Part shown: positions 18,433-60,201 of the stretch, piece after piece
How positions within the stretch are numbered: the first letter of the stretch is position 1
How the letters are laid out: each line of letters opens with the position of its first letter
NCBI GenBank assembly: GCA_035222895.1
Contig: JAVYIG010000318.1
Location: forward strand, 124,001-188,000
From: Strongylocentrotus droebachiensis
Taxonomy: Eukaryota; Echinodermata; Echinoidea; Camarodonta; Strongylocentrotidae
DNA: 64,000 bases
Direction of reading: 5' to 3'
The notes under the pieces: generated by a model
What the model was told of the DNA's origin: nothing
The model's input: only the letters and a program-made list of their open reading frames with translations
Databases searched by the model: none
Program-made: the position numbers and the translations under genes

Positions 18433-21400
18433 ATGATGATATTGATTTGTGCAAAAGCTCTTTTTTTTCTGGTTTTTATCATCTCCAAATGTGGTAAGTT
18501 GTACTTCATCTTTGGATTGTAAGTGTAAAGTGAGCTTAGCCTCGATGGGATTTCGGGAGGTGTAATTAATATAATGAATGCAATATTTTGTTTAGGCAAA
18601 AATATCCATACTCCTTTGATTCATGATTTCCAAACGCTCTATATCGTGTAAGCCGCCATATTTTGTTTTATTATCCCAATTACATGATGGAGGTACAAAG
18701 ATCATTGTCAACGAAACTGGTCAGAAAGCTAAACTATCATATAAATTGTACCAACTCAGAGATTGTCGTACATATCACTTATACTTATGCATTACTTTGT
18801 ATTACACACACGTATTGGAAACTATTCTGTGCGATCAATCAAGATACTTGAACGTGGGGCCATTATCATTTATCGTCAAGGTGTTTAACAGAAAGTGTAT
18901 TTAAACGATGGGAAAGCTATTAGGAATGTCACGCCCTCACCCCCCCCCCCATCTACTATTGAATAACAATTGAAAGAAAGCAAAAAGTAAGATGAAAGAG
19001 AAAGAGAAAGAGGAACAGGGAAACAAGCAGGAAAAGAACAAGATTGGAACATCATCATAACCTCTTTCATAATCAAGCGGTAGTCTTGAAAATTTGCACT
19101 TCATTTGCTGAGTACACCGGTGCCCCTCCCCCCCCCCCCCACTAGTCCAGTAATCCTTACTTTAATTTCACCCATACAGGATACAATGCATTTGAAGTGT
19201 CGATTCGAACGGGCAACTCTCTACCAGTCATCGGGGAAGATTTCACACTGGTCTGTACCTTTACCCCGCAAACCAGGAATCGACTTGTAATTTGGGAAAG
19301 GAGAGGTAGTTTTAATACGCTGGCCTCTCACGAATGTAAGGATTATGGTTCTTGTGGATTTACTGTTCTTGAACAATGGAAATTCAGCTTGTTAGCAGAC
19401 TATTACAGTGCGAATCTTACAATAAAACATCTTCACAAAAGTGATGGAGACAACTACCAATGCACTGTAAGCGATACGGTTGGACCAGCGAATCCCGGAT
19501 CATCTAGCATGCAAGTAACTCCATTACTACCAGGTATACTATTCATTAAAACAAACTACAAAGCAAAGTAAAAGGATAACGTATTCATTCATACATATCA
19601 CTGAGGCAAACAGTACAAAAAAGGATCTTCCAGTATTACATTTTACACAAAGATTGGCGTGTTCTTAACTTGATATACTCTGCAAAGCATTCGATAAAAC
19701 AATCAGTGGTAAAGTTTTGAAAATGTATCTAAATATTCGGCTACAAACTAACTTACACGACAACACCAACATAGGGCTGGTTAAATGATTACTTTAACGA
19801 TATGTGATACTCCTATATCTAATTTTTGGAGTTGTAACTTTGAATGTTTGTGATAACAGTCAATAGTGATTACATCTCAAGGATGAAGACTATCAGATAG
19901 AACAAATTATATTGGAGTTTGGTTTTTAATCGTAGATATTCCCTTTTATGTCGCTAGCCCCGCCCAGTTGGCTCCTTTTCACTAACGTAAGATCGAGCAG
20001 CTACCTGAGCAACATCAGTGTTACGGTATCAGCTGGACAGCCGTACGACATCATATGTGAAGCATACGGGGCAAGGCCTCCTGCAGTACTGGAATGGCGT
20101 ATACCAGATGGTGTAACCGTTGTCTGTCAAGATCAGTCTGATGTTGTACGAGGCAAAAGCTATGTCTCTCTGAACGCTGTAACAATCAGACCCTCTAGGA
20201 ATGATCAAGGAAAGAATCTCGGCTGCGTAGCATCACATCCAAAACTACAAAATGATCTTCAACGCTCAGTTCACCTGAATATTCAGGGTAAGTAAACGTG
20301 TTAAGGTAGCATGTCTTCCCTGTAGTTATGTGGTGCCAATATCATAACAGGTGAGATCAGTGTTGTATTTCTCTTTATGTACTAAAAATCGAGCAGTTTC
20401 TGGGCCGAAATATCAATAAATGTTTACACATGTTTATTCACGAGATTCATATTTTTTCTACAAGTATTTTCTTTCCATTCATATGTACAAACGTATTAAA
20501 TATATATATATTTCCTAAAAACACTATCTAGCGTTTCTAACATGATTTCTTCTAAATTTCTCTTTTATTAAGTTTTGCCCTCTAGCCTGTTGCTTTTTCT
20601 ATCCGGAGAAAGCGAGAAAAACGGACAAGGGTCAACCACCATTTACGTTCAAGAAGGTTCATTGACTTCAATCACCTGTAAAAGTATAGGGTCCCTACCA
20701 GCAGCTGAACTATCATGGCGACTTGACGTCAACAAAAGTCTTCCCAGTAACATAAGTCTGTCAAAGTATCGCAGTGCTTTAGATCAAATTTTGTTCGACA
20801 CCGAAAGTACCATCAAGATACGTCCAGAAACAAAACACCACGGGATGTACCTTTGGTGCTATGCATCTCTGGGAGAGTTTCTTGATATACGGACAGCTAA
20901 ACTGATGGTTTATAGTGAGTTCAGGTTCTTTAATATACTGGTATACCATTTGTATTGAACTTCATAGGACATTTTTTGTTCTGAAAGTCCCATTCATCAC
21001 TTATAATTAAAAACAGGTGACTGGTTTATCTATTAATATTTACCCGATTTTAACGAAATTATCATTATAGTTATAACAAAATTGGCGTTTCCTCGGACTG
21101 GGAGGAGAAAAAAGGATTGTTTGTCAGCATGGCCCTCATGTCTTTTCTCATCGCTGTATAGCTTAATATCATATTTAAGAGCTTATATATTTAACCAAAT
21201 GAAAATTTGAGCCATCAAGGTTTTATCGATAACCATATATAATTCATTTCTGTGTAAAGGCCCACCAGATGATGTTAGAATTACTAAACTAGAGGACCTA
21301 CAAGACAGTATAAAAATCAATGTAAGCTGCAGAGCTTCCAATGGATACCCTGCACCTATCATCAATTGGTACATCGGATCTAGAAATGTGACACATAATT

Positions 21401-22215
21401 CATCTCTTAAGACTTCAGTGACTGCAGATAATCGGTATGATGCTGAAAGCACCCTTACTCTCATACCAAAGAGGATTCATTATAGGAAACCTCTTCTCTG
21501 TCAGGCAGTTCAACCTACAATACCCGCAATACGGTCAATGAATGATAGCATAGTGCTGACCATATCATGTGAGTATCCATTTTCTATAAACCTTTTGGTA
21601 AGGATATTATGATACAGAATCTCCTGAAACTGCTTTTGATATTGATAGGTGTATGTTTTCATCAAAGATTCCTTAGAGTCTTCGATTGCTATTTTCCCCT
21701 TTAATTATATATAATGTTTTTTCTATCTGTATCTAAAATTTTATAAATTTGTCACAAGTCCCCTGTGGGTTGTCTTTTTTCGATCTTACGAAGGGATCCA
21801 TATGTATAACGACCAGTCAAAGTAATGGGCTATATCTTAATTTTCGTGTTTTGTTCATGCATGCCATCGACAAGTCTGTTCATCCATTTCCATCCCCATC
21901 CCAACCCACCTTCCATCTTTCACGTTTAGGTATTAACATCTTTTGCATATGTTATTATATATTTAGGTTCATTAATGTCTTGTCCATGTCATTCTCATTG
22001 TTTTTCATTATATGAATTGGTGCTTGCTTCCAATTAAAAACATTCTAGCTTTCATGAATTCTTTTTCTATTTATCAAATGATTAATCAAACCAAAATTAT
22101 AGCATTGAATGAACAGTCTCTACCGATTTTACTGGATTTTTTTGTTACCACTGTTTAACCCTGAAATGCAGTTATCCCCGATTCACCTTCTTGGCTCATC
22201 TTCGACCAAAACTAA
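18433..22215 (+). CDS. Gene C (type 1): secreted four-Ig protein
   Basis: Exons: 18433-18493 (hydrophobic signal peptide, MMILICAKALFFLVF...), 19180-19533 (Ig1, V-like), 19958-20287 (Ig2), 20573-20914 (Ig3), 21260-21568 (Ig4), 22172-22215 (start of FN3, stop after 14 codons). All junctions are GT/AG and phase 1, and the total is 480 codons including the stop. The Ig5 exon of sister genes is absent: the intron runs straight from Ig4 to FN3. Ig3 keeps its central Trp, unlike E and G. There is no transmembrane segment, so secretion is predicted. Related to gene A's ectodomain; ligand unknown. The small signal exon is supported by matching exons at the same place in E, G and I. Confidence 0.75.
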
Positions 22216-22473
22216 ACGACATCTTCAGCTCTCTTCGTTGCCTGTCAACCGGGATGCAAAACCAAGTTACGTCATAATTGGATATGATTTAACAAACTGT
22301 CGATACACATGATTAAGATTAACTTCAAGATATCAATAGATTGGCCATGCCTTCAAATTGACGAGTTTAACCCATCTTCCATCTTTTACGTTTAGGTATT
22401 AACATCTTTTGCACATCCACAATTTAGTTTACAGGTAAAGAAGTGTGTCTGAACTGTTAACTTATGGAGACTG

Positions 22474-23427: not shown

Positions 23428-24129
23428 TGCATAGTCTAGCATACTTAGTAAGCGATGCACTGTAGCTCATCCTGACACAGCTCGAGAATGGAAGAGTTCA
23501 CTAACCACGAGGCTTTTTGAAAGTGTTTTAAAGTTTTATAATAATAGATTATATAGCTACGGACTACACATGAGTACGCCCTGACTGTAGAAGCCGGGAA
23601 AAAGATGACATATTTACAAAAGATTTACACATATGAACAATGATCATATTGCCTTCTAATCGAATATAGTAAGTCGATTTCTTTACAGCGTATCTAAACT
23701 GCAGTTTCTCTTTGGAGCATAAATATTGACTACAGTATATCAACTGGGACCCCTTATATCCAAGGCAAGATATTGGTTGGTAATTGGAACACTTTCGGTT
23801 TACAGGCGAAAGTACAAAATAAATTATTTCGCGATTACTGGAAAGGATTTGTTTTCTTGAAAACTCAAACGTGCTATTCGGTTTTATTTTAGTATAGAAC
23901 GTATTTATGTCCATTAGGGTAAGAAATAAAACATATATCCCCTAAACACTTATCCCATTGTGTAAAATACAACATTTTATATAATTCCCTGCCATTCCTC
24001 TTCCTAAAGATATTTACCTATCATATACAACGTAATGGCATTATCGAAAGTTAAAAGTAAAACAATATGAATAGTCAATGGTTGACTCATGATAACAACT
24101 AGCTGATACTTCCAAAATAGCCACTTACA

Positions 24130-24399: not shown

Positions 24400-27300
24400 A
24401 TGGACGCACGTCTTCAAATAGTTATCTTTCTAACCTTCATCGTTTCTAAGACATATGAGATAGCGTGTCTACTCGTTTTTAGAACCCGGAAATCCTCCCA
24501 GTCGTTGGTGAGAAAATAACACTTGCCTGCACCTTCACCCCTCCATCGAAATATCGCCAACTGTTTTGGATGGACAGGAATAACAATATCCTAGCTAGAT
24601 GTCCAGGAGTGGGATGCAGAAACGATCAGAATTTCTCAGATATGTCCAAGTACAGTCTGGTGGCAGATTCTTCGAACGGAAATATAACTATTAGGTATTT
24701 AACAGTGGATGACAGCGGCAATTATCGGTGCCTGGTTTTTACATCTAATGATACAATTGCAAGTGGAGTTGTAGTGAAGGTATTGTTATCAGGTAATGTA
24801 TTCTAACTTTTATCTGGATTACTTGACCTAGTTGTGATGTGTGCAAAATCAAAATGTAAATGATTCGAAATCATTACAACATTTGAACTTTGGAATAAAA
24901 CAGTCATGTCAGATGTATCGAGTTCAATTCTTGACAGAGAATAATCCAAACTATCGTCGTTTTTAGAAATAGTGATGATATTGTGGTATTTTTTATTTCG
25001 TTTATGTATATAACGGTCCTTGAATTAGGTCGACACCCAATTTTAAAATACCTATATTCCAGTTGTAACTGTATATATATATATATTATATACATATAAA
25101 ATTTGTTTAATTTCCAGCCAGACCTACATTGCTATCCATCATCGACGATAAGTGTGAGGATGGATACGAGAATGGAGCATCAGTGAGTATCACATTTGGG
25201 CGAACGCACAACCTAACATGTTTAGTCCAAGACGCTAGACCACCTGCAAAACTGGAGTGGCACGTTCCCGAAGAAGTACAGATTCAGCTAGACCATCAGT
25301 ATAACGCACTTCGTGGTGACGCTTACACCTCTGAAACAATTATTTCTGTAACTCCGTCCAGGGACGATGATGGAAAGATTTTCCGTTGTGTGGCTTCGCA
25401 CCAGGAGCTGGAGAATGGGCTTCAATCGTTCATCCGTTTAGATGTTCAAGGTGAATATCCATCATTGTTCGGTGTCGTATAAATATGCGTCTAAATATGA
25501 GCATTGTCTGAAATTGATGAAATATGCAATATCTCCTAAAACGTTTACCTCTCTTCTGTATTTCCTTCAGGTAGGGAATAATAAGAACGTCTTTAGAATC
25601 CATGATCCCTTCACCGCTAATAGTTCACCTTTTTATGAAAAATTAGCTGACTTTGTATGAACATTTTGATTCTGCCTTTCTATTTTCACTCAGTACCGCC
25701 AAGTGACCTTCAGCTTACCGCTTATGGATACCTAACTACCAATGCAACAGAGACAAGAAGTGTCAATGTCTTTGAGGACTCGGCAACATCATTCACCTGC
25801 AAGAGTGGAGGATCTCGCCCTACATCTCGTATATCATGGACCATTGGTTCTGAAGACGACCTGGGTAGCACGACCACTAAGTCTACCACGAATGAGGCCG
25901 ACCAAGGTTTACGTGGCACACAGTCTACTCTACATTTGATTCCAAAGAGGAGGCATCACAATAAACTGCTCCGATGTGTGGCATATGCTGGTATGAACCA
26001 ACGTCAATTAGAAGTGAGGCTAATCGTCTATGGTGAGTATTCGTAAGTTGCATTAACTATACCTCATCTTCTCTAATTCAAACAGAAAACCGAACAACAA
26101 CTAATTTGGACATTGATATATATCTGATGTAAAACTTTATATTTGAAATAACCGGGTGTACTAATACCATGCTTGTATATTATACAGAAACACATTTCAA
26201 AGAAGTAACAATATTATAAATTCTGTAGTGACATACCTTCGGGACAGCTAAAGTAATTTATATATCAAGATATTTGTTGTTGATTTAGGTGTAAAAATAT
26301 GGGGTATGTATACTTACGATACATAGGGCGTCGTTGACTTATATATCGGCAGGCATTAATTCTAATATCGCAATGTATGTGATATGTAAGTCACTGTGGA
26401 TTAATCTAAAAGGAAATAATGTAATAAACACATCTTGATCTTCAAGGACCACCAAACCGTCCCTACCTCAATGGAACAGGAGGTTTGCAGGCTCGAGTGT
26501 TGTCAAATGTGACTTGCACATCGAACAACGGCTACCCAGCACCAACTTTTCAATGGTACCTTGGATCAAAGAACGTCACCAAAGATTCTAAAACACAGCC
26601 ATCGAGGAATCGAAGTCTTCGACGGGATGCCACAAGTGTTTTCAATTTCACACCCACAGTAGACGATCATGGAAAACTCCTTGTCTGTCAAGTGTTTCAA
26701 CCAAACGCTGCATCCATAAAGTCATGGAGTGTCAGTGAGGTACTTCATGTTTTGTGTAAGTACAGTTTGATCAATTCATCATTGAGATCTCATAAAGAGG
26801 CAGGTACATTACATCGCCTCACCTCTACAAAAGGGCATTACCATCAATGTAATTACTTGGCGTTCGTGCCCTTTATGCAGTAAGTCGGTGATTATATTAA
26901 CCTTTACATATACATGTTTGGCTGCGACGAGGCTTGGGAACGACAGCACAACTATAACATTTGCATATTCTGGTAAATCTCTTACTATCAGACCAATGCG
27001 CATTTATGTAAAGGATCATGTCATATTGTTGAAATGACATATTGTCTAGTGCAGTACTGTGTCAGTGATGATCCCAGATGACAAATGATAAAGTATGATA
27101 CTGTTCCGATGTTATAACCTAGGTAATGAGATGATTACCCAGTAACAGGAAGTATCGAGTAATTTTCATGAATTTACTCGTTACGGGACATTAATGTGTT
27201 GACTTTGAGCATCGGTGATGGTTGAAGGGCTAATTACATGCACAACAATGCTCTGGTGAAAATTAAATTGAGTTTTATCTCGTCAAGGATACAGGGTTGA

Positions 27301-27622
27301 CATTTAGAGTTCGGTTTAAGGCATGTAACTTACAACCGTCAGTACTGCAGCACGATATGATACACAAATTAATTGGATTGATTGGATACTTTTGGGATTT
27401 TTTGGTAGCAAAATATGTTGAAGAGATTATTCCTTGGAACATGAAGTTTTCACCATCTTTTTTCCAGGGAGTCCAGATCCACCTTACTGGTTCATCGTCG
27501 ATCAAAACCAGACGACATCATCTACTCTCTTTGTTGCTTGGCTACCTGGAATCCCTGGTGGGTTTCAGCAACATATCACTCTGGTGCATAAAATGAGGGA
27601 TCTGGTATTATTTCTTCTTTGA
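24400..27622 (+). pseudogene. Gene D (type 2): Ig gene with broken first exon
   Basis: Exons by homology to F and H: 24400-24792 (signal peptide plus Ig1), 25118-25450 (Ig2), 25694-26032 (Ig3), 26447-26755 (Ig4), 27468-27622 (start of FN3, TGA). Ig2-Ig4 are fully open with intact splice sites. The first exon is 393 bp against 394 in H: a G is missing in the TATGAGATGAGC region of H (TATGAGATAGC here), which shifts the frame after the signal peptide, and a TGG seen in F has become TAG just upstream of Ig1. The Ig5 exon has lost its first half. The gene may be dead, or may use another start or acceptor (TTTTTAG at about 24482). Confidence 0.7.
26911..26972 (+). pseudogene. Remnant of the Ig5 exon of gene D
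   Basis: Only the last part of an Ig5 domain remains (YTCLAATRLGNDSTTITF), followed by a donor-like GGTAAATC as in F. The upstream half, with the first Cys and Trp, is not recognisable. Splicing from Ig4 straight to the FN3 exon would keep the frame, because all borders are phase 1. Confidence 0.6.
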
Positions 27623-31436: not shown

Positions 31437-34400
31437 ATGATGGCGATTTGTGCAAAAGTTCTTGTTTTTCTCGCCGCTATCATCTCCAAATCTGGTAAGT
31501 TTTATTTCATGATAACTTGACAAAATTCATTCGTACTTAGCCCAGGCAGAGATTTATGAAAATCTAACAACTTAAACATTTCAATGCACTATTAAACGAT
31601 TATCGTTGATTAATGTTTTCTAAAAACAGTGTCATAATCCGTTTTTATATCTCAAATCTCTTGATTTTAAGATGAAATTTAATAGATAGATGGAAGAAAA
31701 AAAACAAATCACAACGCTTGTATAGCAATTCCGATCATGGGCAACAAAATTGACTAACAAAGAATTTTAACGAAACACATCATTGTCGTGCATCTCGTTA
31801 TTGCTTTGGATACCAAGCAGGTATTAAAATCTAATCGGGTAAGTAAATCAATGAATTGGTAACACTGGGTCATCTTCTTGTATCTTTAATAGCTTTACCA
31901 AGGGTTGTATCTGATATGTGACGTAAATTATGTGGCAGTACGGGAGGACACGAACCCGTCCAGTGGTGAGAAACAATTAAAAGAAAGACAAAGTGAGAAC
32001 AGAGAGAAAATGTAAAAGGGAGAAATGGATAACGACGAGAAAAGAAGACACATAGGGTATCCCCCGCACCCTTCTACTTCAAAAATCGCGTTTCATTTTC
32101 TGAATATGTCCGGTGCCAACCCACCCATCCCCCACCCTCCTACCCCAGTCATTCAAGTACCCCTTCAGTAGGTGGAATCGCCCTACGTCACTTGTTGTTG
32201 ATGCATGTTGCTTGCAATGTACCAGATAACTTTCCTTCGGAATGTTATTCAATTCTACTCATACAGGATACCATGCATTTGAAGTATCTATTCAGACATT
32301 CGACTCACTTCCAGTCATTGGCGAGGATTTTACACTGGTCTGCACCTTCGAGCCGCAAACCAGATACAGGCGGGTATTGTGGACAAAAGGTAACAACGTC
32401 ATGGTGGCCTATCACTCTTGTTTGATGGATTCGGCTTGTACAGGGTCCAACGTTCCTTACCCATCGAAGTTCAGCTTGTTGACAGACACTGGCAGCGGAA
32501 GTTTAATAATACACAAACTTGACAGAAATGATAGCGACAACTACCATTGTACAGTATCCAGTTCAACCGTGGAAACGAATCCAGGATCAACTAGCATGCA
32601 AGTGACACCATTTTCACCAGGTATAGTATTCAGTATTATAAATTTACACAGCAAACATCAAGGAAAATATATTAATGTTAATGTTAATTCATTATGTATG
32701 AGTGTATTTTGTGGATTAAAATCTCAATCAAACGTCTGTTTTGTATATTGTTAGTAACACGATGCGAGGCTTTAAAACAAAGAGAAGTCTCACATGTTCA
32801 CGTATTATCAAAACTGCAGGTGATTTACTTGATTCATGCCTTTTATTTCATTATTCTACGAAGTATCATGACGATTGTCTCAATATATTTGGGACCAACT
32901 TTAACAACCTAATTACTCAAGAAATGAGCTTAAACGATTTCTTAAAGGAACTGTGTTAATGATTTCATGATGCTCCAGTGTTTAATTTGGAAGTGGCGCT
33001 CTTTGAAAGGCTGTTTTAGAGTAATGACTGATTACATCTGAAGAAGGTAAACTATCGGAGTGGAGAAGTAGAATTCGAAGCGACCTTTATTCATCGTGCC
33101 TCTTCTTTCCTCTGGCGCTAGCTCCGCCCTATAGGATCATTATTACTGATGGGAGATTGAGAGGTTATACCCCTAACAACGCCTCTGTAACGGTCATAGC
33201 TAGACAGCAACATGACATCACATGTGAAGCATACGGGGCAAGGCCTCCTGTAGTACTAGAATGGCGTTTACCAGATGGTGTAACTGTGGTTCTTCGGGAA
33301 CAGTCTGATGCCGTACAAGGCAACAGCTATGTCTCTCGGAAGGCTGCTACAATCACGCCCTCTAGGAATGATCAAGGAAAGAGTCTTTACTGTGTGGCAT
33401 CACATCCAGAACTACAGAATAATCTTCAACACTCAGTTCACCTGAATGTTCAAGGTAAGTGAACGTGCTAAGTACAAGGCGTTTAATCTTTTCGTTGTTA
33501 GGTGGTGCCAATGTCTTTAAAGAAGAGTACATGTCGTATTTTTGTTAATCTTTACGTCCTGCTCTACTCAGACCACAACATTTTAACAGTTTATGTGGCA
33601 AAATCTCAAGGAATATTTATGAATGTTCATTCGTGATATTCTACAAGTATATTCTTTATATCCACATGTACAAAACGTATAAATAAAAACTATCTCGTTC
33701 CTGTAAGATTTTGTTTGCGTTTCTTACATGATCTTGTGTGTTATTTGTTATTCTCATTCTCTTGTATTAAGTTCTACCCATTAGCATGTTACTTTTTCGA
33801 AACGGAGATAACAAGGAACACGGATCTGGGTCATCATTCATTTACGTTCAAGAAGATTCATCGACTTCGATCACTTGTAAAACTATTGGATCGTTGCCAG
33901 CGGTTGAACTATCATTGACTCTTCTTGGTGACACAGATAGTACTCCCGGTAACTCAAACCTGTCAAAGTATCCCAATGCTCTAGATGGAGCTTTCTTTGA
34001 CACCGAAAGTACTATCACAATACATTCACAAAGAAAGCACCATGGAATGTTCATTCAATGCTATGTTTCTCTGGACGGAGACTTTGTTCATGTACTATTA
34101 GCCAGGTTGATCGTTTACGGTAAGTATGGATTTTCAATATATCGGCATTTGATGTTCCTTGTAATATCCCCGGTGAGAAAAAGCATTGTTGTTATGGATT
34201 TAATCCCCTTTAAGGCCATATCTTCGCTACGAACATAACGAAAATTGTTTCATGTATGCCTCGTCATCTACCCAATTAAAAAGAATCACACATGAGGGGG
34301 AGGAAAAGTGAGAGCGCATTATTATGTTATCCAAATGACAATTTGACTCATTAAGGCTTTACCCATAACCACAAATTTCATGTCATTTTAAAGGCCCACC

Positions 34401-35459
34401 AGATAATGTTAAAATTACAACCTCCGATGATCTAAGTGATGGTGAGGAAACCAACGTAAGCTGCAGAGCTGTTAATGGATACCCTGCTCCGTATATCCAT
34501 TGGTACATCGGATCTAGAAATGTGACTCATGATTCGTCTCTAAAGTCTTCAGTGAATCAAGCTGATCGGTATGATGCTGAAAGTACCCTTATCATCATAC
34601 CAAAGAGGATTTATCATGGGACACCTCTTCTCTGTAATGCAGTTCAACCTACAACATCCTTTATGCAGGAAGTTCAACCCACAACACCCTCAATGTGGTC
34701 GGTGAATGATAGCATCGTTCTGAACATATTATGTGAGTATTCATTTTCGGTAAAACTTTTGATTAGGACATTACAATAAAGAATCTCCAAAAACTGCGTT
34801 AGATATTGATCTGTCTAAGCGTTCACGAACTATCCTCAAGAGTCTTCGTCTGCTTTCGCTTTTATTTTATTTAAATTCTACACTTTTGTTAGTTTAAGTA
34901 AATTTCTGGAAATGCTTTACACGTTCCATGTAAGTTGCTTGTTTTCCAACTGACACAGAATGCTATGGATGAAGACAAAGTAAAATTAATAGACTATAAT
35001 ATAATTTCTTCTCTTTTTGTCCTGCATGCATTGAAAAGTATCTTTACATCCTACCCCATCAACCTTAATTAACCTCCCCTGTCCTTTCTTCTTGTTCTAT
35101 TTTCTATCACCTCCACTCAAAACAAAATTCCAACATTATTTTTTAATCTAGACGGCCCAATTGTGTTCGTTTCTTCTCGACGTCTAACTTCAAATGGAGT
35201 ACATACAGGGTTCATGTTGACATGTACCTCCAACGCGAATCCTCCTGCTTTTATCTTCAAATGGTTCTGTAACGGCACAAAGTTGTCTGATGACTTCCGT
35301 ATTCTCTCCGAGACTATACAAGAAGGTGAAACGCTGTCTTCCAGTGAAAAATCGATTCGAAACCCCCGGTCCGAAGATCCGTGTGATTACAAATGCGTAG
35401 CAGTGTCAAGATATGCTTCCGGGAGTGCAGTCTTTAACTACACGTTGTCTCGTAAGTAG
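31437..35459 (+). CDS. Gene E (type 1): five-Ig protein
   Basis: Exons: 31437-31494 (signal peptide, MMAICAKVLVFLAA...), 32267-32620 (Ig1), 33122-33454 (Ig2), 33772-34119 (Ig3), 34394-34732 (Ig4), 35152-35451 (Ig5). All are phase 1. The FN3 relic downstream (about 35662-35745) has lost its AG acceptor (TTG in place of the CAG in G). If the Ig5 donor is not used, translation ends at once in the donor itself (CGT AAG TAG), giving 579 residues. Otherwise an unseen terminal exon is needed. Ig3 has Leu at the usual central Trp position. Ig4 carries a doubled QPTT...M segment that C has once. Predicted secreted; ligand unknown. Confidence 0.75.
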
Positions 35460-35661: not shown

Positions 35662-35745
35662 TTGTTATTTTCGATCCACCTTCTTGGCTCATCGTCGACC
35701 AAAACCGAACGACATATTCAGCTCTCTGCGCTGCCTGGCAATTTA
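35662..35745 (+). pseudogene. FN3 exon relic behind gene E
   Basis: The sequence matches the FN3 start of G (WLIVDQN... then a CAAW-like core) but has no AG acceptor and breaks off. The spacer to the next gene is only about 350 bp, much shorter than C-D or G-H, so a deletion joined E to F. Confidence 0.55.
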
Positions 35746-36109
35746 GATTCAACATAAGGTTACGACACAATTGGTACTATCGAAAGTTCAGGGTAAAATG
35801 CTACTACATGTCATTGATTGACGGATAATATCAATTAATCATGTTTTGCCAAAAGTGCCAATTAAATTAAGTTGTTAAAACCCCTTTTCATTCATAACTG
35901 ACCATCACTACTTAAGTTCTTCAGAGAGATGAATCGCTTTCATTTTCGTAACGCAAGAACAAAAGTAAGCCATTAATCTCTGTGCCTATTCATTATGCCA
36001 ATAAAAACCCATATCGCTTCCTCCTCATTTTTTATCGGCAGATATTCTGGTTCATGACACAACGTCCCCAGTTTGAATTCATAGGGAGAGACAAACCGTG
36101 GATGACAAC

Positions 36110-42924: not shown

Positions 42925-45900
42925 ATGGTGCCGATTTGTGCAGAAGTTCTTCTTTTTCTCATCGTTATAATCTCCAAATCTGGTAAGTTTTAATTCATGT
43001 TAACATGATAAAGTCGTTGGTACTCAGTCAATGCGGAGAATTAGAGAGATGTAATTAATTCAATACACTAACCATTAGTGTTTGCATTCATGTTTTGAAA
43101 TTGTTGTCTATCTCATTATCCGCTTTTATTACTTTACTCTCTGTATTCTTTGGTGGAATTAAATAGATAGATGAAAAAACTATCAAATCACGACGATTGT
43201 ATAACAATTCCGATCATGGGCAACAAAAATGGTAGTAAAGCTAAACTAACAAAATAATGTTACCAACTCCAATCTTTGTCGTGCATCTTGTTAACACTAG
43301 TTGCCTTCTACGCCAAGTCGTATTGGAAGCTATTTGGGCAAATTATAATAAATGGTCGTAACATTTGCCCATTTTATTTTATTGTAAATTTGTTTATCAG
43401 AGACACCCTCCTAATCACTAAATTCGCATTTCATTTTCTGAATACGTCCGGTGCCCCCCCCCCCCCCCTCCTCCACCGATCATCCCAGTGCCCTTTCAGT
43501 GGGTGGCATGCGTTATGTCACCATCTGATGCATACTATTAATAATATAGTAGGTACCTTTCTTATAGAAACTCGTTTCTTTTCACCCATGCAGGATACCA
43601 TGCTTTTGAAGTGTCTATTCAGACGTTCAATTCTCTTCCAGTCATTGGGGAAGACTTCACGATGGTATGTACCTTCACACCGAAGAGGCGATATCGGCGG
43701 CTAATTTGGGCAAAGGGTGACAACATTGTGGTAGCCTCTCACGTTTGTTTGCCGTTTTCAGATTGTACAATGGTTACCGTTCCTTATTTATCGAAGCTCA
43801 GCTTTTTGGCAGACACTGGCAGCGGAAATTTAACGTTAAAGAAACTTGACAGAAATGATAGCGACAATTACCTGTGCACAGTAAAAAGTGCATATGGGGT
43901 GGAGAATCCAGGATCAGATACCATTCACGTGACACCATTGTCACCAGGTATGCTATTGTAATGAATTTTCACAAGAAAACTCAAGGATATTTATGATGAT
44001 ATTATGACGATATATGAGTGTACTTTTCATTAAAATCTTAACCAAACCCCCTTTTTCCTGTATTCTATTATATAAATACCACTATGGGAAGCTTGCAACC
44101 AATTTAAGGTTGCATATTTTCACATGTTATTAACAGGAAAGTAATTGACTTGATACATGCCTATTATATCATTATTTTAAGAAATGTCCTGATAATACCA
44201 GCACAATTTTAGTTTGTGAAATACTGAGGGGTTTGCTAGTTGTTATCGTACGGGGAGCAGGGAATGAACTACGATAATGTACAAAGACAATATTTGTGAA
44301 TCTATTTTTATTTGGTAACAACTTTAACAACTTAATATCTAAAGCAATGGTTCATAACATTACTTTTGAAGGAACTGTGTCAATTGTAGGTTATGTTACA
44401 TTGCCTAACTTTGAAGTGGTAATCTTGGAAAAGCTGTTTTAAAGTAATTAGTTTTTCCATCTCAAGGAAGTAGACTGTTAGAGTAGAGAATTTTAATTGA
44501 AAGCGACATTTATTAATCGTGACTATTTCCCCTTATGTCGCCAGCTCCGCCAAATAGGATACTTATCACGGATGAGAGATCGGGCGGTTATTACACTAAC
44601 AACGCCGATATGACGGTAACTGCTGGAGAGCTGTATACCATCACATGTGTAGCATTTGGGGCAAGGCCTCCTACAATACTGGAATGGCGTATACCAGATG
44701 ACGTAACTGTTGTTCTTCAAAACCAGTCTGATGTCGCACAAGGCAACAGCTTTATCTCTCGGAAGGCAATTACAATCACACCCTCTACAAATGATCGAGG
44801 AAAGAATCTCCGCTGCGTGGCATCACATCCTGAACTACCAAGCAGCCGTCAGAGTTCAGTTTACCTTAAGGTTCAAGGTAAGGAATACATTTACACAAGT
44901 ACAACGCGTATTCACTTTCTCACAGCCTGGCAGTTTTTTTTTTTTAAATCACAATTAACATCAATGTCAGTAAAGTGAGTCCACGTCTTCCTGTTTTTAC
45001 CTTGTATCAATTGCCACTCAGATATAAAATACTAAATCGTCTATTTTGCTTTGGATATTTTGTACTTTTACTGCACTTATAGAAACATATTTTGTTATCG
45101 CTCCTAGAAGAAATGTTTATGTTGCCTTATATTTTGTTTCTGTCATGAAGCTCAACTGACCATCATGCTCTCTTCTACAACTGGAGATAACAAGCACATT
45201 TAGCGTTTCTTACAAGACTTAGAAATATGATTTCACGTTCTTCCCCTCTCTCTGTCTTTCTTATATAGTTCTACCATATAGTATGTTGATTTTTCCAAGT
45301 GGAAATAACAAGGAACACGAATCTGGTTCATCATTCATTAACGTTCAAGAAGGTTCATCGACTTCGATCACTTGTAAAAGTATTGGATCATTACCAGCGG
45401 TTACTTTATCGCTGACTCTTCTTGGTGACACCGATACTTTTCCCGGTAACCTTACAACGTATCACAATGCTTTAGATGTAAGTTTGTTTGACACCGAAAG
45501 TACCATCGCAATACATCCAGAGAGAAAGCACCATGGAATGTTCATTCAATGCTATGTATCTCTAGACGGAGACTTTATACATGTACTATTAGCCAAGTTG
45601 ATCGTTTACGGTGAGTTTAAAGTTTTTAATATATCGGCATTTTATCTTCCTTTTAATATTCCCAGTGAGAAAATGCATTTTTATTATGGATTTAATCCAC
45701 TGTAAGGCCCTATCTTCGCTACGATCATAAGGACATTGTTATATGTATGTATCGTTATCTACCCAGTTAAAATGAATCATTATCATTGATAAGTTATCGT
45801 CACCTATGATGGGGAGAAAATGTGAACGTTTATCATTGTATACCTCGATTTTCTCCTCGCCTTTAAAAAAAATAATACGTCTGAAAACGCATAATTCTTT

Positions 45901-46465
45901 TCTCTTAATGACAATTTGACTCATTAAGGCTTTACCAATAATCATATATTTCATTTCATTGTAAAGGCCCACCAGATAATGTTAAAATGACAACCCCCGA
46001 TGATCTACGTGATGGTATAGACACCAACGTAAACTGCAAAGCTGTTAATGGATATCCTGCTCCGTTTATCCAATGGTACATCGGATCTACAAATGTGACG
46101 CATCATTCTTCTCTTAAGACTTCAATGAATGAAGCTGATCGGTATGATGCTGAAAGCACCCTTACCCTCATACCAAAAAGGATTCATTATAGGAAATCTC
46201 TTCTCTGTCAGGCAGTTCAACCTACAACACCCTCTATGCAGGAAGTTCAACCCACAACACTTTCAATGCGGTCAGTGACAGTGAATGATAGCATGGTTCT
46301 GAACATATCATGTAAGTTTTCATTTCAGTAAAACTTTTGGTAAGGAGATCATTATAAAGAATCTCCTAAAACTGCGTAGGATATAGTTCACGAACTATCC
46401 TCAGGAGTCTTCATCTGCTTTTGTTCCCCTTTTTTTCTTCTTTAGATTATACATATTATTTTTTG

Positions 46466-46496
<31 letters not shown>

Positions 46497-47388
46497 AATT
46501 TCTTTAAATGCTACACACTCCCCTTGCTGGTTGCCGTTTTCCTATCTTACGACAGGAGCAGTCAAAGAATAGGGTAGACGTTAATTTTGTCATGCATTGA
46601 CAAGCTTCGTTTGGTCCTAGCACAATAACCTTATATTGAGTCCCAAGTCCTAATCGTATCCTGTGTCCCTTCTTCTATTTGATATCTCCTCTTCTAAAAA
46701 CTGATTTCCAAATTTCTTTTTATAATCTAGACACCCCGATTGTGTCCGTTTCTTATCGACGGCTTACATCAAATAAAGCGCGTTTTGAGTTCGTACTGAC
46801 ATGTACCTCGGACGCCAATCCTCCTGCTTTTATCTTCCAATGGTTCTGTAACGGCACACAGCTGTCTAACGGCACCCGTAACATATCACTCTCCAAGACT
46901 ATACTAGAAGGTGAAACGCTGACTTTCAGCGAGGTGGTCATTCAACACCTTCAGTCCGAAGATCATTGTGATTATGAATGCGTAGCTGTGTCCAGATATG
47001 CTTCAGGTAGTGCACTCTTCAACTCCACATTTTCTCGTAAGTAGAACTGTGTTTTTTCTTTGTATCTTTCCGTTCATTTGTATCTTGTTTATATGATTCT
47101 TTTTTTTGTTGTCATTATATGGATTTGTGCTTGCTTTTTAATAAAAATATTCGCTTCATGGAATTTTCTATTTTTCAAAATGATTAATGATCCAAATTCA
47201 TAGAACTCAAGGAATAATCTCCAATGATTTTTCATTAACGCTTTATCACTGATTAACGTTAACATGCAGTTATCTCCGATTCACCTTCTTGGCTCATCGT
47301 TGACCAAAACCCAACGTCATCTTCAGCTCTCTTCGTTGCCTGGCAACCTCGATGCAACATCAGGTTACGTCAAATTTGGATAGACTGA
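42925..47388 (+). CDS. Gene G (type 1): secreted five-Ig protein with truncated FN3
   Basis: Exons: 42925-42982 (signal peptide, MVPICAEVLLFLIV...), 43594-43947 (Ig1), 44545-44877 (Ig2), 45269-45610 (Ig3), 45967-46311 (Ig4), 46731-47036 (Ig5), 47270-47388 (FN3 start, TGA). They total 619 codons including the stop, all phase 1. This is the only type 1 gene in the window with every part intact. FN3 ends after about 38 residues. Ig3 has Leu instead of the central Trp; Ig4 has the doubled QPTT...M segment. The Ig5 donor reads CGT AAG TAG, so intron retention would stop translation immediately. No transmembrane segment; secretion predicted. Confidence 0.8.
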
Positions 47389-49930: not shown

Positions 49931-49939
49931 CAAACAAGC

Positions 49940-50215: not shown

Positions 50216-53200
50216 ATGAATGAACATCTTCGAATTTATCTCTTCCTCACCTTCATCGTTTTGAAGACATATGAGATGAGCGTGTCTACTAGTATTCAAA
50301 ACCAAGAAATCTTCCCGGTCGTCGGTGAGAATATAACACTTGCCTGCAACTTCAACCCTCCATCTACATATCGCCAAATGTCTTGGATTGGCAGGAATGA
50401 CAATATCCTAGCTACATGTCAAGGGGTGGGATGCAGAAAGGAGAAAATTGTCGCGGATATGTCTAAATACAATTTGAGGGCAGATTCTTCCAGCGGAAAT
50501 CTAACTATTAGGGATTTAACAGTGGATGACAGCGGCAAATATCGGTGCATAGTACTCACATATTCTGATTCAGCTACTAATGAAACTGTACTGAAGGTAC
50601 TTTTATCAGGTAATGTACTTTATCAGGTGATGTATTATAATATTATTTTGGATAGCTTAATCCGGCTATGATGTGTTCGAAATAACATATAAATGATTCA
50701 TCACTCATTCATCAACTCAATGAAACATTCGAACATTTAAATAAAACAGTCATGCGGGTGTAGCGTCATCAATAACTATAGTACGTTAATTCTTAATATA
50801 TTACTATTAGGATATTATGGAATAGATTAACACTATAATAAGGAAAGCCCCTTCACTAGAAAACGTTAAACCAAGACTGAAAACTCACTTGTGCATGTAG
50901 TCTCTACAGTATTAGCACATTATTTACGAGCTCTTGCATCGCAGTAGAATATATCAACGTAGTTATTGCGCTTTACAAATGAATATATTATATTATTATT
51001 ATTATGTCGAGTTCGTTTCGTGACTGAAAATAAACCAAACAATTGTATTATACAAAAGGTATTGATATTATGGTATTTGTGTTATATTTATGTGCAAAAC
51101 CAGACACCCAGCTTGAAAAAAAATATATTCCACTGGTAAATATGTCCATACATGTACACTTTGCTTAATTTCCAGCCACGCCTAGATTTTTATACATCAC
51201 CGACGATCGGTCTGAGGATGGATACATGAATGGAGCATCACTGAGCATCACATCTGGACAAACCCACAACCTAACATGCTCAGTCCGAGAAGTGAGACCA
51301 CCTGCAGAACTGGAGTGGCAAGTTCCTGAAGAAGTACAGGTTCAACTGGAAGATCAGTATAATGCTGTTGATGGTGACGCGTACACTTCTCAAAGAGTTG
51401 TATCTGTAACTCCCTCGAGAGAGGATGATGGAAAGATTTTCCGCTGTATGGCTTCGCATCGGGAGCTGAATAATGAGCTTCAATCAACCATCCGTCTAGA
51501 TGTTCAAGGTGATTATTGATATCACTCAAGACAGGTATATTTGCGTCCGACTCGTCTTGTTGAGTGAATAAACATCAGAACGTAAACATCAGAACGTAAT
51601 ATATTATAATTCTGAATATTATATACGATATATTCTAAAAATTCCGAATTACTCAAATTGCTTTCACGAATGTCACTTCTAAACATCTTGATAACAGACG
51701 CACGTACCTGTTATGACTGCTGATAAAGCATAATTCGATGATTATTCCACTACTTTATTTCCAATCAGTCTCCCCCTCTCTCCATACCATAGAAAGTAAT
51801 AACTTGAAGCAATCTCATATTGTTCCGTTTAGTCTCATTTCACAACGCCCTCTATCGTCAGAGTCAGCAGCCTAACATGTTAGCCTATGGAATTTACCCA
51901 AAAAAAAAATCGTTAAAAATTAATTTTTTTGTTTAAACGAAAAGCACATCCACCCTGACGTACGTTATCACTAGCTCTTTCATTGGAACCATCAAGTCCC
52001 ATTGACTTTTGAAAGTTCACCCACCGTAATTTGATCAAAATAGGTTGCAAGCTCGTCGTTGCCTATAATACACATGTGAAACGAGTCGAACTTTGGACTC
52101 AGTTTGCCAAGCGATTTTAAGATTATAGGTCAAGCACACGAATGATAAGAAGCATGAATTATCATAGATCACTTCTGCTTGGTTCATTATGTCCATTTCA
52201 TCCAACCCCCACCGTCATTTTTCCATTTAGTAAAAGCAAACATTTTGCCGAGGTAAGCAAAAACATGTATATTCATGAACGGTCAGACAATACAGTCTTT
52301 TAGTACGTAACGTATAGTGAGTGAGAATGGGCGATGATCCGTCCAGGAGGTAGAGGTCAGGGGTTTGTGCTGGCAATGCTCCAGCGAGCGAAAATGAGAC
52401 AACCGGAGCAATATGTATGTGTTTGCCAATTTCGTGGTTTTTCTTTTTCTCCTCTCATTTAGTTCCGCCAACAAACCTACGGCTCACCGCATCTGACCCA
52501 ATCACTATCGACGAAGCAGGAACAAGAAGTGTCATTGTCTTTGAAGACTCGGCAACATCATTCACCTGCAAGAGTGTAGGATCTCGCCCTAAGGCTGTCA
52601 TATCATGGATCATTGGTTCGGATGACGACCTGGGTAGCACGACCTCTACGTCAACCATAAATCAGGCCGACCAAGGTTTACGAGACACGGAGTCTAATCT
52701 CCAGTTGATTCCGAAAAGGGGGCATCACACTCAACTTCTCCGATGTGTGGCCCATGCTGGTATGAACAACAATAACAAAGGAGTGAGGGTTGTCGTCTAT
52801 GGTGAGTATTCGTACTTGGTATTTACGATACGTCATCTTCTCGTTTCCACAACAGAAGACCAAATGCGGTTAGGGACAAACTGCTAAACACTTGGACATT
52901 GATATATAGCAGATGCACATATTTTAACATTTAGAATAAATGGGTGTACTCATACCAAGGTTCGACTATTCTGCATTAATGTATTTCAATGGAGTATCAA
53001 TTCAGGACATTCCTAAGTGACAAACCTTACTGATAGCTAAAGAAAAATTAATATTGACATCAACATTATTCATTTATTGTGTCCGAATATTAGTTACAAG
53101 TAATACATAGGCTGTTGCTGCTCATGATATCGGAATAACCAATTTGTTTTTATCGGTTTTATGTTATATGCAAGTCACTGTGGCTTAAAATCTAAAAAAA

Positions 53201-56200
53201 TATAATGACATATGAATTACACTTTAATTTCAAAGGACCACCGGACCCTCCCTACCTAAATGGAACGGAAGGATTGGAAGATGGGGTGTCATCAAATGTT
53301 ACTTGCACATCGAACAACGGCTACCCAACACCAACTTTCCAATGGTACCTTGGATCAAAAAACGTCACCAAAGATTGTAACACGCAGTCTGAGAGGAATA
53401 TACATCATCGAATGGATGCCAATAGTGTTTTCAATTTCACACCGACATTACATGATCATGGGGAACGACTTGTCTGTCAGGTTTTTCAACGAACTGCTCA
53501 ATCAGTGAAGTCTTCGAGGATTACTGCGGTTCTTAATGTTCTCTGTAAGTCTCCTTTACTTACTGTCTCCCCTAAAAGTCATAGTGCACATTTTATTCTG
53601 AGGTACTATTTCTTCTGATTTTGTTTCTCAAAAAGTTAACTGAATGATGAACAGTAGCTAACGGTTGTATATTCCATTTATAAACCATGAACTCTCGTCC
53701 AAAAAAATATTTGTGTAATACTACAGAGTGAAGTATTAGAATCATTGCTTACATGTAGACTTTGTGTGTCATTTTGGAACCACCAACATGACGTTCCATA
53801 ACGTTGGTGAGGGCTACGAGAAATTTGTTCATTTTTTTCTTTTCTGCCATTCTTTTATTAAACTTTAGAAAGCCTTCGCATTTGCCTTTCTTTTTGTTTC
53901 TATAATCGTTCTAATGCATTTATTTTTCCTTCTGAATCCAGATCCTCCCGTAATTGAAAGCTTCTTTGTTCGACGGATACCCATTGGCCAGCGAGGCGTC
54001 AATGCCATCTTTACCTGCACATCCGATGGAAGACCCCCTGTTTCTATAGCCTGGTTCTGTAATGACACGAAAGTTACTAACGGCACCCGCCATCAGATTT
54101 ACCACAGTCTTCTACAAGAATATACCTCGATGTCGAGTATTCTGACTATTTCTCATATTTCGGCAGAAGACGATGGCAACTATACATGTTTGACCGAGAC
54201 AAGGCTTGGAAACGACAGTGCAACTATAATATTTGTATATTCTGGTAAGTATTTACTATCAGACCAAGGTGCATATATGTATAAGGATCAACTATATTAT
54301 TGAAGAGATGGTTACGAGTCATCCCACAATGATCCGGTGAAAATTGCGTTTGGCTTGACTTTGCCAAGGATTTGTCGTAAATATAATGAAAGCAATTCGG
54401 TTAAACAATGGGTACAGGCACTGGCGTACCTATGGGGGGGGGGGGGGGGCAGGGGGGGCAGAGTGCCCCCCCTGACGGGCTCCAGGCGAAACAAAAAAAG
54501 GGGAAAGAAAAGAAAAGAAAGGAAAGGAAAGAAAAAGAAAAAAAGAAAAGGGAAGAAAAAAAGGAAAAAAAGAGAAAAAAAGAAAAAGGAAAGAAAAAAG
54601 GAAGAAGAAGAGAAAAGGAAGAAAAAGTGAAAAGAAAAGGAAAGGAAAAAAATGGGGAAATAAAAAAAAAAAGACCATGGCCGTACGCACCAGGGGGGGG
54701 GGGGGGGGGGCAGTTGACCCCAGATATTTTGAAAACGTACAGTTTTTTTCCTGAAAATGTAGTGTAGGCCTATACCAAATCCTTCAATTCTACTTTTGAA
54801 AATGCAAAAGTACCCTCATGACCAGTTCGGTCGCTCGAACTCTCTTCACTCCTTTTGCTTTTGAGATTCTTCGAAAACTTTTAACGCATCTTTCCCCCTC
54901 CTCCACCAGAAAAATATTCCGCATACGGCCCTGAAAAATTAAGACAAATGAAAATAGGAAAATATAAGTGATATAACAAATTCGAAACTCTTCGCTGGCG
55001 CGAACTGCTTGCTAGCCTATTTTGTATTAAATGTTTTCACTTGCTTGTCCCCCTGAAAAAAGAAAAGGATTAGCATTGCCTAGAATACAATTGTGCCTGC
55101 CCCGACGGGCCCCGACCTGCAACCATGGCAACAATAACACACAGTGTATGTACCAAATGTTACTAAAAGAGAGTAATTCATTTTTCTCGCTCGCTACACT
55201 TTCTCGCGAATAAAATGAATAGATATTGCTTTGGAAATAATTGTGCCCACCCTTGACCTGCAACAGTATCATTAAAAATGGAAGAGTTTTTTCGCCCTCT
55301 CGCCAAAAAGGAATTGAATCGCGTTAAACGCAATTGCGTCCATCCTGACCTGCACCAATAAAAACAAGTTTATTTATTAATTTCTATTAAAAGAGATTTT
55401 TTTTTTTTTGCTTGCTCGCTATGCTCGCTCGCCAAAATGGAATTGACACCGCTAACGTGCCCGCCCCAACCTGCAACAACCAGTTAATAATTATGTATAC
55501 CAAACGTTATTCAAAGAAGTTTTGGTGTGCTCGTGCTCGCCAAAACGGAATTAACATCACCTTAGACATGATTGTGTAAGCCCTGCCCTGCAACAAAAAA
55601 ATCTGAAATTTATGAACCAATTATCATTACAAAAATTTTGCTCGCTCGCTACGCTCGCTCGCCAAAATAGAAATAACACCGCTTTTAATAATCACGTCCC
55701 TGACATGGAACAATGAACCCAAGTTTATGTACCATATTTTCCATATAAAAGAGAAGTGATTTTTTTGCTCGCTCGCTACGCTCGCTCGCCAAAATAGAAA
55801 TAACACCGCTTTTAATAATCACGTCCCTGACATGGAACAATGAACCCAAGTTTTATGTACCATATTTTCCCTATAAAAGAGAAGTGATTTTTTTCGCTCG
55901 CTCGCTACGCTCGCGAGCTCGTGGAATTATGTGCCCACCACTAACCTGCTACAATATCATTAAAAAGAGAAATGTAGGGGGTTGCCTGCCCGCCAAAATG
56001 GGATTGACATTGCCTTAAACACGATTGTGCCCGCCCCCGACCTGCAACAATGAAACAAATTTTATATAGCAATTCATTGAGAGAAAGATGTATTTTGGCT
56101 CGCTAGCTAAAATGGGTATAAAATCACCCTAAACACAATATTGTTCCCGCGCCCTGCATGGGACAATTGAGCCAAGTTTAAGTGGCAATTATTAAAAAAG

Positions 56201-57006
56201 AAGTGATTTTTTTCTTGCTCGCTACGCTCCTTTGCAAAAAATGGAATTAACGTCGCTAACAAGTGAATGTTCCCACCCCCAACTTGCAACAATACCAGTT
56301 TATATACCAAACGTTACTTAAAGATTTTTTTTTGCTCGCTCGCTCGCCAGAAGTGAAAATTAGCATCGCCTTTTTTGTTTGTTTCGGTCGCTTGCCCCCC
56401 CCCTGATGGAGTACCCCAGGTACGCCACTGGGTACAGGGTAAGGGTTAGGGTTACGTTTATATACAACGTTTGGGTTAAAATGTACAGTTCGGATAGAGG
56501 AACGAAATTGGCCAGGGGGAAATTGCCGCCGGAGCATGTATTTATTTATTTATTTATTTATTTATTTATTCCGTTTTATTTTAACAGGGTAGCCCCGTCA
56601 GTAATCAAAGTACTGTTTTCCAGGTGGCCCTGTACATAAATGAACATATATGAAGAAACAAACTACTTGAACAATATAAACATCATGGAAAACATCATTA
56701 CATAGCAACATATAACAGAAAGTGAGTAAAGAGTAAGAGTGAATAATGAAACAAAGCCGTAGTAAGAATGATACATTTCAATGAGCAATTTACGATTTCA
56801 TACCACAAACTAAATGAATTGATTGGATACTTGTTGATTGTTTTAGTTCTTTAAGATTACCCCTTACAGCATTAATTTCCACCATTTGAAATAAACTTAC
56901 AGGGAGCCCAGGTCCACCTTATTGGTTCATCGTCGATCAAAACAAGACGACATCATCTACTTTCTTCGTTGCTTGGCAACCTGGTATCACTGATGGGTGC
57001 CAGTGA
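50216..57006 (+). CDS. Gene H (type 2): secreted five-Ig protein, last intron split by transposons
   Basis: Exons: 50216-50609 (signal peptide and Ig1), 51176-51508 (Ig2), 52463-52801 (Ig3), 53236-53544 (Ig4), 53942-54244 (Ig5), 56903-57006 (FN3 start, TGA). They give 594 codons including the stop, all phase 1. In-frame ATGs also occur at 50162 and 50198; 50216 is preferred because it aligns with D and F and directly precedes the hydrophobic stretch (IYLFLTFIV). The last intron is 2.7 kb because a 2.0-kb hAT-like element and a LINE tail inserted in it. FN3 ends after about 34 residues. Predicted secreted; ligand unknown. Confidence 0.75.
50820..51004 (+). mobile_element. 3' end of a LINE in an intron of gene H
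   Basis: A short plus-strand frame reads SLENVKPRLKTHLCM then stop, typical of the extreme C-terminus of CR1/L2-like LINE polymerases. It is followed by about 100 bases of UTR-like sequence (GCGCTTTACAAATGAATATA) and an ATT repeat. Confidence 0.6.
54419..56430. mobile_element. Non-autonomous hAT-like DNA transposon, 2.0 kb, perfect 8-bp target duplication
   Basis: Ends are CACTGGCGTACCT (left) and the complement of CAGTGGCGTACCT (right), flanked by identical 8-bp repeats GGTACAGG at 54411-54418 and 56431-56438. Inside are a purine-rich A/G tract (about 54490-54670), poly-G runs, and several diverged units containing GCTCGCTACGCTCGCTCGCC at about 55420-56350. No transposase. The perfect duplication suggests a younger insertion than the element at 14950. 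Confidence 0.88.
55400..56350. repeat. Irregular minisatellite with GCTCGCTACGCTCGCTCGCC core
   Basis: Units of roughly 100-130 bp recur with the core motif, followed by CAAAA(T/A)GGAATT and a CCTGCAACAAT-like segment. Two adjacent units near 55680-55900 are almost identical over about 115 bp. The repeat lies inside the hAT-like element. Confidence 0.75.
56538..56720 (-). mobile_element. CR1/L2-like retroposon 3' end with TTTA tail
   Basis: On the minus strand it reads GGGCTACCCTGTTAAAATAA into an AATA repeat (the TTTA run at 56538-56571), as in 3' ends of CR1-like elements. It sits just downstream of the hAT-like element in the last intron of H. Confidence 0.5.
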
Positions 57007-58840: not shown

Positions 58841-58950
58841 AGAGCGCCCCTCTTGTTTAAACATTGACAACATGCATACTGTCATGTTACGTCGATGGTT
58901 TGGTAAATATTGTGAAACTGAAACGGTGTCAAAATGACAAACATATATTT
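58841..58950 (+). promoter_or_regulatory. Putative type 1 promoter block of gene I
   Basis: Starts AGAGCGCCCCTCTTG and contains GAAACTGAAAC at 58914-58924, which fits the GAAANNGAAA consensus of IRF/ISRE sites exactly. The TATAAAT of E and G is altered here (GTTAAAG). Confidence 0.5.
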
Positions 58951-59119
58951 GTTTTACTTCTAACGTTAAAGATCACCGATTCCTTCAAAGTATGGACTAT
59001 TCGTTAAAAAGCGACAACTGTTTACGTACTGTCTGCTTGCGTTAACAGAACATCGATCGTGTGTGGTATGAGCTCGTCAAAAACTTTTCCGAATGGCAAG
59101 ATTCAACTATTAAAAAAGA

Positions 59120-60201
59120 ATGTCGACTTGTGCAGATTTTCTTCTTTGTCTCGCCATTATCATCTCCAAATCTGGTGAGTTTTATTTCATGTTAACTTCA
59201 TAAAAGTTGTTCGTACTTAGCCCAGATGGAGACTTTGGGAGAGGTAACAATGTAATGAAATAGATATACCAACCAATCGTCGTTGGGTCCATGATCTTCA
59301 CATTTTTTCCAAAATTATCGAAGCACGATGATTGTATATCAGATCACAGGCAAGAAACCTATTCGTATTTTCAAGTTTTTCAAATTTCAAGTATAAAAAA
59401 AACTGTTCCAACTCCCATTCATGTGGTACTTCTCAATTAGACATTGCTTTTCAAAAGTTAAATACTCTACTGAGAACATTTGGGTACTGTTTTTCAACGT
59501 TAGTGTGTTTAACAGAGTATGTTTTTGATCAGTGGCGTAGATATAGGAGGCGGCACGGAAGGGCACGCCCCGATCCAGCGGTGAAAACAAAAGAAAGAAA
59601 GGGCGATAATAGAGAGGAAGAGAAAAGGAGATAGGAAAAAGGACGATACAATAAAGACATTTCCTGCAACTACCTCATGATCGATTGTCTTTAAAATTTG
59701 CATTTAATTGGCACGATCCCCCGCCCCCTCCCTCCCCAATGTTCCAGTTCTCCTTCAGTGGTTGTGTGCTTACTCGATGTATGCGATTAGCAATACCTTC
59801 AGCTTCTTTCCCTTGAACTTATTTTGATTTCACCCATGCAGGATACCATGCATTTGAAGTGTCGATTCAGACAGACCATTCGCTACCAGTTATCGGGGAA
59901 GATTTTACAATGATCTGTACCTTTACGTCGCAAACCACGAATCGGATGGTCGTGTGGGAAAAGAGTAGTCTTCCTTATGCGCTGGCCACTCAGGACTGCC
60001 AGGAATATAATTCTTGTGTGCTAACTGTTCTTGACGAATGGAAATTCAGCTTGGTAGCAGACTGTTACAGTGTAAATCTTACAATAAAAAAACTCGAAAG
60101 AATTGATGGCGACAATTACAAATGCACAGTAAGAAACGAACTGGTATCTGAGACAGCGAATCCGGAATCAGCTAATTTGCAAGTGACGCCATTGTTTCCA
60201 G
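59120..60201 (+). CDS. Gene I (type 1): first two exons only
   Basis: Exons: 59120-59174 (signal peptide, MSTCADFLLCLAIIIS...) and 59842-60201 (Ig1, 120 codons, with both Ig cysteines and the extra Cys pair). Both are phase 1 with good splice sites. Ig2 should follow within about 500 bp, as in C, but the sequence from about 60600 onward is retroelement fossil and repeats, and no Ig2 appears before the window ends. The gene is either interrupted or has a greatly enlarged intron. Confidence 0.65.

Follow-up and report, generated by a model that had tools for sequence, protein, structure and literature searches.

In the 64-kb window, that is, the whole stretch of DNA analysed here, whose sequence style suggests an animal source, probably a marine invertebrate and perhaps an echinoderm, seven units built from Ig exons occupy 18433-60201 on the plus strand, in the alternating order T1a, T2a, T1b, T2b, T1c, T2c, T1d (four of type 1, three of type 2; Table 1). 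Exon models were derived manually, on the basis of homology and splice sites, and then verified by script, including Ig4, Ig5 and FN3 of gene A, a receptor-like gene upstream of the array. The seven units contain 27 Ig exons with GT donors and phase-1 ends, all but the first exons also having AG acceptors, and the expected frame is open in 26 of the 27, the sole failure being the first exon of T2a. The signal peptide and Ig1 are separated by an intron in type 1 and share a joint exon in type 2. T1b and T1c comprise a signal peptide and Ig1-Ig5, T2b and T2c the joint signal-peptide/Ig1 exon and Ig2-Ig5, and T1a a signal peptide and Ig1-Ig4. In a Pfam scan the first Ig domain was a V-set domain, followed by C2-set_2 and I-set domains. 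As stated in the initial annotation, each unit has its own upstream block, conserved among units of the same type. All Ig1 domains (e.g. 43596-43946) carry an extra cysteine pair, spaced C-x4/5-C, that follows the strand bearing the conserved Trp (GVGC in type 2) and possibly forms a second disulphide.

Some of the units are damaged or incomplete. Because of a 1-base deletion, seen in the alignment with T2b and T2c, the first exon of T2a (393 bases) has a frameshift and an early stop between signal peptide and Ig1; Ig2-Ig4 of this unit are intact, and only the last ~63 bases of Ig5 are left. T1a lacks Ig5, all its remaining exons being open. T1d is represented in the window by signal peptide and Ig1 only, and a sensitive search of the remaining 3.8 kb did not find its Ig2. 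With T2a frameshifted and T1d incomplete in the window, five units are intact; the earlier description of seven same-strand alternating units thus holds for order, strand and exon models, but not for the number that is intact. Outside the array, an open frame at 61066-61566 is followed by a stretch reading HSFRKGAATSAAKTG, which recalls tyrosine recombinases and has no Pfam match; it is possible that a mobile element interrupts or borders T1d here.

Gene A is visible over 272-7673, and its 5′ part, including Ig1-Ig3 if present, lies upstream of the window. Exon models, trees and hydropathy agree with the initial annotation that it combines type 1 Ig4-Ig5 with FN3, a membrane helix and a tail. 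The tail contains seven 18-residue YMDL/M repeats, encoded by a 54-base tandem repeat, and ends in LPTAQ. With six matches to the ITIM pattern [ILVS]xYxx[ILV], its tyrosine motifs, which are short, resemble ITIMs. The membrane-proximal exon had no sequence match among solved structures, and its model is of low confidence.

Table 1. Exons and exon remnants of gene A and of the Ig array (positions in the 64-kb window).
Feature	Position	Strand	Basis or remark
Gene A Ig4 exon, type 1 clade	272..625	+	exon model, tree
Gene A Ig5 exon, type 1 clade	995..1300	+	exon model, tree
Gene A complete FN3 exon	2392..2685	+	PF00041, E=7.9e-5, 23.2 bits, just below curated cut-off of 25
Gene A membrane-proximal Cys-containing exon, without recognised domain	4267..4500	+	
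Gene A transmembrane exon	5255..5407	+	hydropathy 2.65 over 19 residues
Gene A short cytoplasmic exon	6425..6459	+	
Gene A tail exon	7011..7673	+	YAEI, six SxYMDL, one YMDM, two YxN
Lone FN3 half-exon remnant R14	14419..14540	+	without nearby Ig exons
Lone FN3 half-exon remnant R17	17405..17520	+	without nearby Ig exons
T1a signal-peptide exon	18433..18493	+	exon model, upstream-block alignment
T1a Ig1	19180..19533	+	exon model
T1a Ig2	19958..20287	+	exon model
T1a Ig3	20573..20914	+	exon model
T1a Ig4 (Ig5 deleted)	21260..21568	+	exon model
T1a FN3 half-exon to early in-frame stop	22172..22213	+	~14 residues
T2a signal peptide + Ig1 exon, frameshifted	24400..24792	+	exon model, alignment
T2a Ig2	25118..25450	+	exon model
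T2a Ig3	25694..26032	+	exon model
T2a Ig4	26447..26755	+	exon model
T2a Ig5 remnant, 3′ end only	26909..26971	+	similarity search
T2a FN3 half-exon with stop	27468..27622	+	
T1b signal-peptide exon	31437..31494	+	exon model
T1b Ig1-Ig4	32267-32620, 33122-33454, 33772-34119, 34394-34732	+	exon model
T1b Ig5	35152..35459 if intron kept; exon to 35451	+	in-frame CGT AAG TAG if intron kept
T1b FN3 half-exon remnant	35668..35774	+	acceptor AG lost
T2b signal peptide + Ig1	36110..36509	+	exon model
T2b Ig2, Ig3, Ig4	37051-37383, 37655-37993, 38399-38707	+	exon model
T2b Ig5	39202..39504	+	exon model
T2b FN3 half-exon, new C-terminal tail, stop	40033..40202	+	
T1c signal-peptide exon	42925..42982	+	exon model
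T1c Ig1-Ig4	43594-43947, 44545-44877, 45269-45610, 45967-46311	+	exon model
T1c Ig5	46731..47036	+	in-frame TAG at 47042 if intron kept
T1c FN3 half-exon with stop	47270..47388	+	
T2c signal peptide + Ig1	50216..50609	+	exon model
T2c Ig2, Ig3, Ig4	51176-51508, 52463-52801, 53236-53544	+	exon model
T2c Ig5	53942..54244	+	exon model
T2c FN3 half-exon with stop	56903..57006	+	
T1d signal-peptide exon	59120..59174	+	exon model
T1d Ig1	59842..60201	+	exon model

The ends of the units revealed a feature that had initially been missed. In T1a, T1c, T2a, T2b and T2c, the last Ig exon is followed by a correct acceptor, the first part of the FN3 exon of gene A and an in-frame stop. T1b has lost the acceptor of this FN3 half-exon, and read-through into the intron meets an in-frame TAG as its third codon. 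Apart from the exons of gene A, a similarity search of the window revealed neither a second half of FN3 nor a membrane exon nor a tail. An intron in the middle of FN3 with a lost second exon was considered and rejected, as the second FN3 half was not found in the window. Since the units terminate with a stop within or adjacent to the first half of the gene A FN3 exon, the soluble forms would represent truncated receptors. Between type 2 and type 1 or gene A, identity of the half-exon over an 81-base stretch is 74-81%, compared with at most 68% between types in every 81-base window of the Ig exons. This similarity begins at the splice acceptor, with no visible extension into the intron. The half-exon has been either homogenised or constrained at the exon level, and ~20 synonymous sites do not suffice to distinguish between the two. 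The lone remnants R14 and R17 are 80% identical over 214 bases and suggest traces of lost units upstream of the array.

The exon structure also bears on a reading in which the units would be alternative 5′ cassettes, in which case each would contribute its own promoter and Ig exons, and splicing would join these to a common membrane and tail region outside the window or to other units. Chelicerate Dscam is a known case of tandem 5′ cassettes (cited in PMC11999971), and the exons described here are symmetrical: all are phase 1, so that cassette joins would preserve the frame. Moreover, the Ig5 donors are intact, even in T1b with its lost FN3 acceptor. However, gene A has its membrane and tail exons upstream of the array, so that they are unable to serve it in cis. 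In addition, T1a, T1c and all type 2 units are each followed by an FN3 half-exon that has a usable acceptor and a stop, and a similarity search of the 64-kb window found no second membrane exon like that of gene A. We consider such cassettes quite improbable.

Domains at the same position are each other's best matches across the two types, with diagonal mean scores of 141, 232, 138, 182 and 128 and off-diagonal scores of at most 112, in agreement with the claim that each type 1 domain aligns with the same type 2 domain. A phylogeny of the exon classes, which the initial annotation had proposed, was run for five exons and separated the types with 100/100 support in each tree. Ig4 and Ig5 of gene A group inside type 1, and several single-exon trees are unresolved. 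The dS between types is ~2.4 or not computable, which is at or beyond saturation, and by these sequence measures the two types are old. The introns are homologous between units and the spacers partly so, and hence blocks were copied. The closest pairs are T1b/T1c in type 1 (introns 77%) and T2a/T2c in type 2 (introns 79%), a mismatch that argues against a history in which a fixed pair was simply copied once. The earlier proposal of an older duplication, after which the pair was copied, is thus retained in its first part and too simple in its second; the data argue for a history of repeated block copying with later recombination or unequal exchange.

Within types, concatenated exons gave a dS of 0.32-0.57, a dN of 0.17-0.27 and a dN/dS of 0.40-0.55, and all comparisons were significantly below 1 (Fisher p 5e-3 to 9e-14). 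The highest pairwise dN/dS was 1.05 (Ig4, T1b/T1c), with none clearly above 1; no significant case of positive selection was found among the pairwise comparisons, which have low power. The locus can therefore be called fast-evolving, as before, in the sense of rapid divergence but not of positive selection. Indels amount to 0.6-15 per kb in exons versus 47-97 in introns. All exon indels are in frame for T1b/T1c and T2b/T2c, and when T1a is aligned with T1b or T1c at the nucleotide level, gaps of 1-7 bases appear that depend on the alignment. Under neutral drift, ~10 stops would be expected per gene. These patterns are a clear indication that the Ig exons are selected for protein, and the purifying selection between copies could be partly older than the truncation. 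The array might instead be debris of a birth-and-death process, consisting of incomplete tandem receptor copies, some of them open by recency, with no selected soluble function. The T2a frameshift, the Ig5 deletions in T1a and T2a, the lost FN3 acceptor of T1b and the isolated half-exons R14 and R17 would be expected from such debris. Nevertheless, five units have four or five open, correctly spliced Ig exons despite the within-type divergence at synonymous sites, dN/dS is significantly below 1, and the T1b/T1c and T2b/T2c pairs show only in-frame indels, so that we regard debris as unlikely.

A matching described locus was not found in the open-access literature searched. The earlier statement that this is not a described system can thus be kept for the exact combination within that literature, but the general design is already known from CEACAM/PSG and from the fuhc-sec/fuhc-tm and fester/FcoR pairs of Botryllus. 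The CEACAM/PSG genes are clustered. In mammals, this one family includes ITIM-bearing membrane receptors and rapidly evolving secreted Ig relatives (PMC7893922, PMC2832619). Compared by layout only, the likeness lies in an ITIM-type receptor with Ig relatives that are secreted or, in the present array, predicted to be so; CEACAM/PSG differ in domain make-up and have neither two ancient alternating types nor a truncated FN3 at unit ends. A carcinoembryonic antigen chain was among the generic Ig matches. In the Botryllus fuhc locus, secreted and membrane genes adjoin, receptors were copied as gene pairs, and tails are of ITIM/hemITAM type (PMC12065747). The present locus resembles it in its predicted secreted genes beside a membrane gene, in pair copying and in an ITIM-type tail. 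However, Botryllus has Sushi and EGF domains, and its paired genes both encode membrane proteins; in the three proteins scanned here, only Ig and FN3 reached or neared the Pfam cut-off, and Sushi (fester, FcoR) and EGF (fuhc-sec) were not found. The same three proteins gave no match to the chitin-binding domain that VCBPs combine with two V domains, or to the fibrinogen domain that FREPs combine with Ig. Insect hemolin is a secreted, immunity-linked protein with several Ig domains. The molluscan defence molecule has the same characteristics (PMC11999971). Compared by description only, both resemble the putatively secreted multi-Ig proteins of the array, but they are not known as alternating arrays adjoining a receptor. 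A fold search with the Ig1 model gave no match at E<=0.001, all hits being of a generic antibody V-like kind, and no relatives were confirmed in viral contigs.

The best sequence match among solved structures was SYG-2 (E=4.8e-19, residues 34-451), and the V, C2, C2, C2, I order of Ig domains followed by FN3 is nephrin-like. The genes could accordingly belong to a nephrin/kirrel-type (SYG-1/SYG-2) adhesion or developmental family, not an immune one, whose soluble forms would tune cell contact or fusion. However, nephrin has eight Ig domains and FN3, and the array units have at most five (the 5′ part of gene A being outside the window). Kirrel has five Ig domains, no FN3 and a C-terminal PDZ-binding motif, unlike gene A with its FN3 and LPTAQ terminus, and echinoderm kirrelL is intronless (PMC8903837). 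The tails of both differ from that of gene A, and single-copy adhesion genes do not usually diverge rapidly, show turnover of copies or have a tail of tandem phosphotyrosine repeats. An adhesion family is in our view quite unlikely.

We favour, with a probability of about 0.5, a fast-evolving recognition locus that consists of a receptor plus soluble relatives. The layout of receptor and soluble paralogues proposed initially is supported by the signal peptides, the stops at or just before the truncated FN3, the selection on Ig exons and the hydropathy profiles, in which no predicted array protein has a membrane helix and gene A has a strong one. The array genes keep only the outer Ig part and thus probably make secreted proteins. 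A recognition function is inferred from the layout, the speed of change and the comparison with CEACAM/PSG and Botryllus. Gene A would be a membrane receptor in which Ig domains and FN3 form the outer part, joined by a single membrane helix to a phosphotyrosine-repeat tail. Copying of receptor-like genes would have stopped halfway through the FN3 exon, leaving each array copy without helix and tail and ending at a stop. In the most probable mode of action, the soluble type 1 proteins would have a ligand surface in common with gene A and function as free binders, either as decoys or as opsonins, and type 2 may be a putative pairing partner of type 1 or provide a second specificity. Confidence in the structure models is low (pLDDT 63-64). 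A further, quite unlikely extension is that the two ancient soluble types were copied as alternating partners with a homogenised FN3 half-exon in common, and that their type 1/type 2 heteromers compete with or assist the linked type 1 inhibitory receptor. If so, the locus would encode a paired soluble recognition system beside its own receptor. If the copies are expressed, the locus illustrates how a receptor can give rise to secreted recognition proteins when copying extends only as far as one particular exon, and it would be a further case of gene-pair copying, as reported for Botryllus. Moreover, the common FN3 half-exon provides a sequence mark for tracing the spread of units.

The interferon-regulatory-factor-like motif GAAANNGAAA is present at 18226, 35938, 50018 and 58914, which is -172 to -207 of T1a, T2b, T2c and T1d (four of the seven units). 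It is a lead only, because the motif is also enriched window-wide (20 versus 5.8 expected), partly in low-complexity sequence. NF-kB-like sites are at chance level, no RNA families or tRNA genes were found in the window, and a bacterial promoter scan gave nothing useful. A tRNA-like sequence at ~3061-3145 with GGTTCGAA and a GAGGCGGACGCTCTACTGACT box, in which ARAGORN calls no tRNA, is perhaps a tRNA-derived SINE. Tandem repeats outside the genes are located at 10012-10786 (257-base unit x3), 15704-16534 (118-base unit x6) and 62093-62583 (269-base unit x2).
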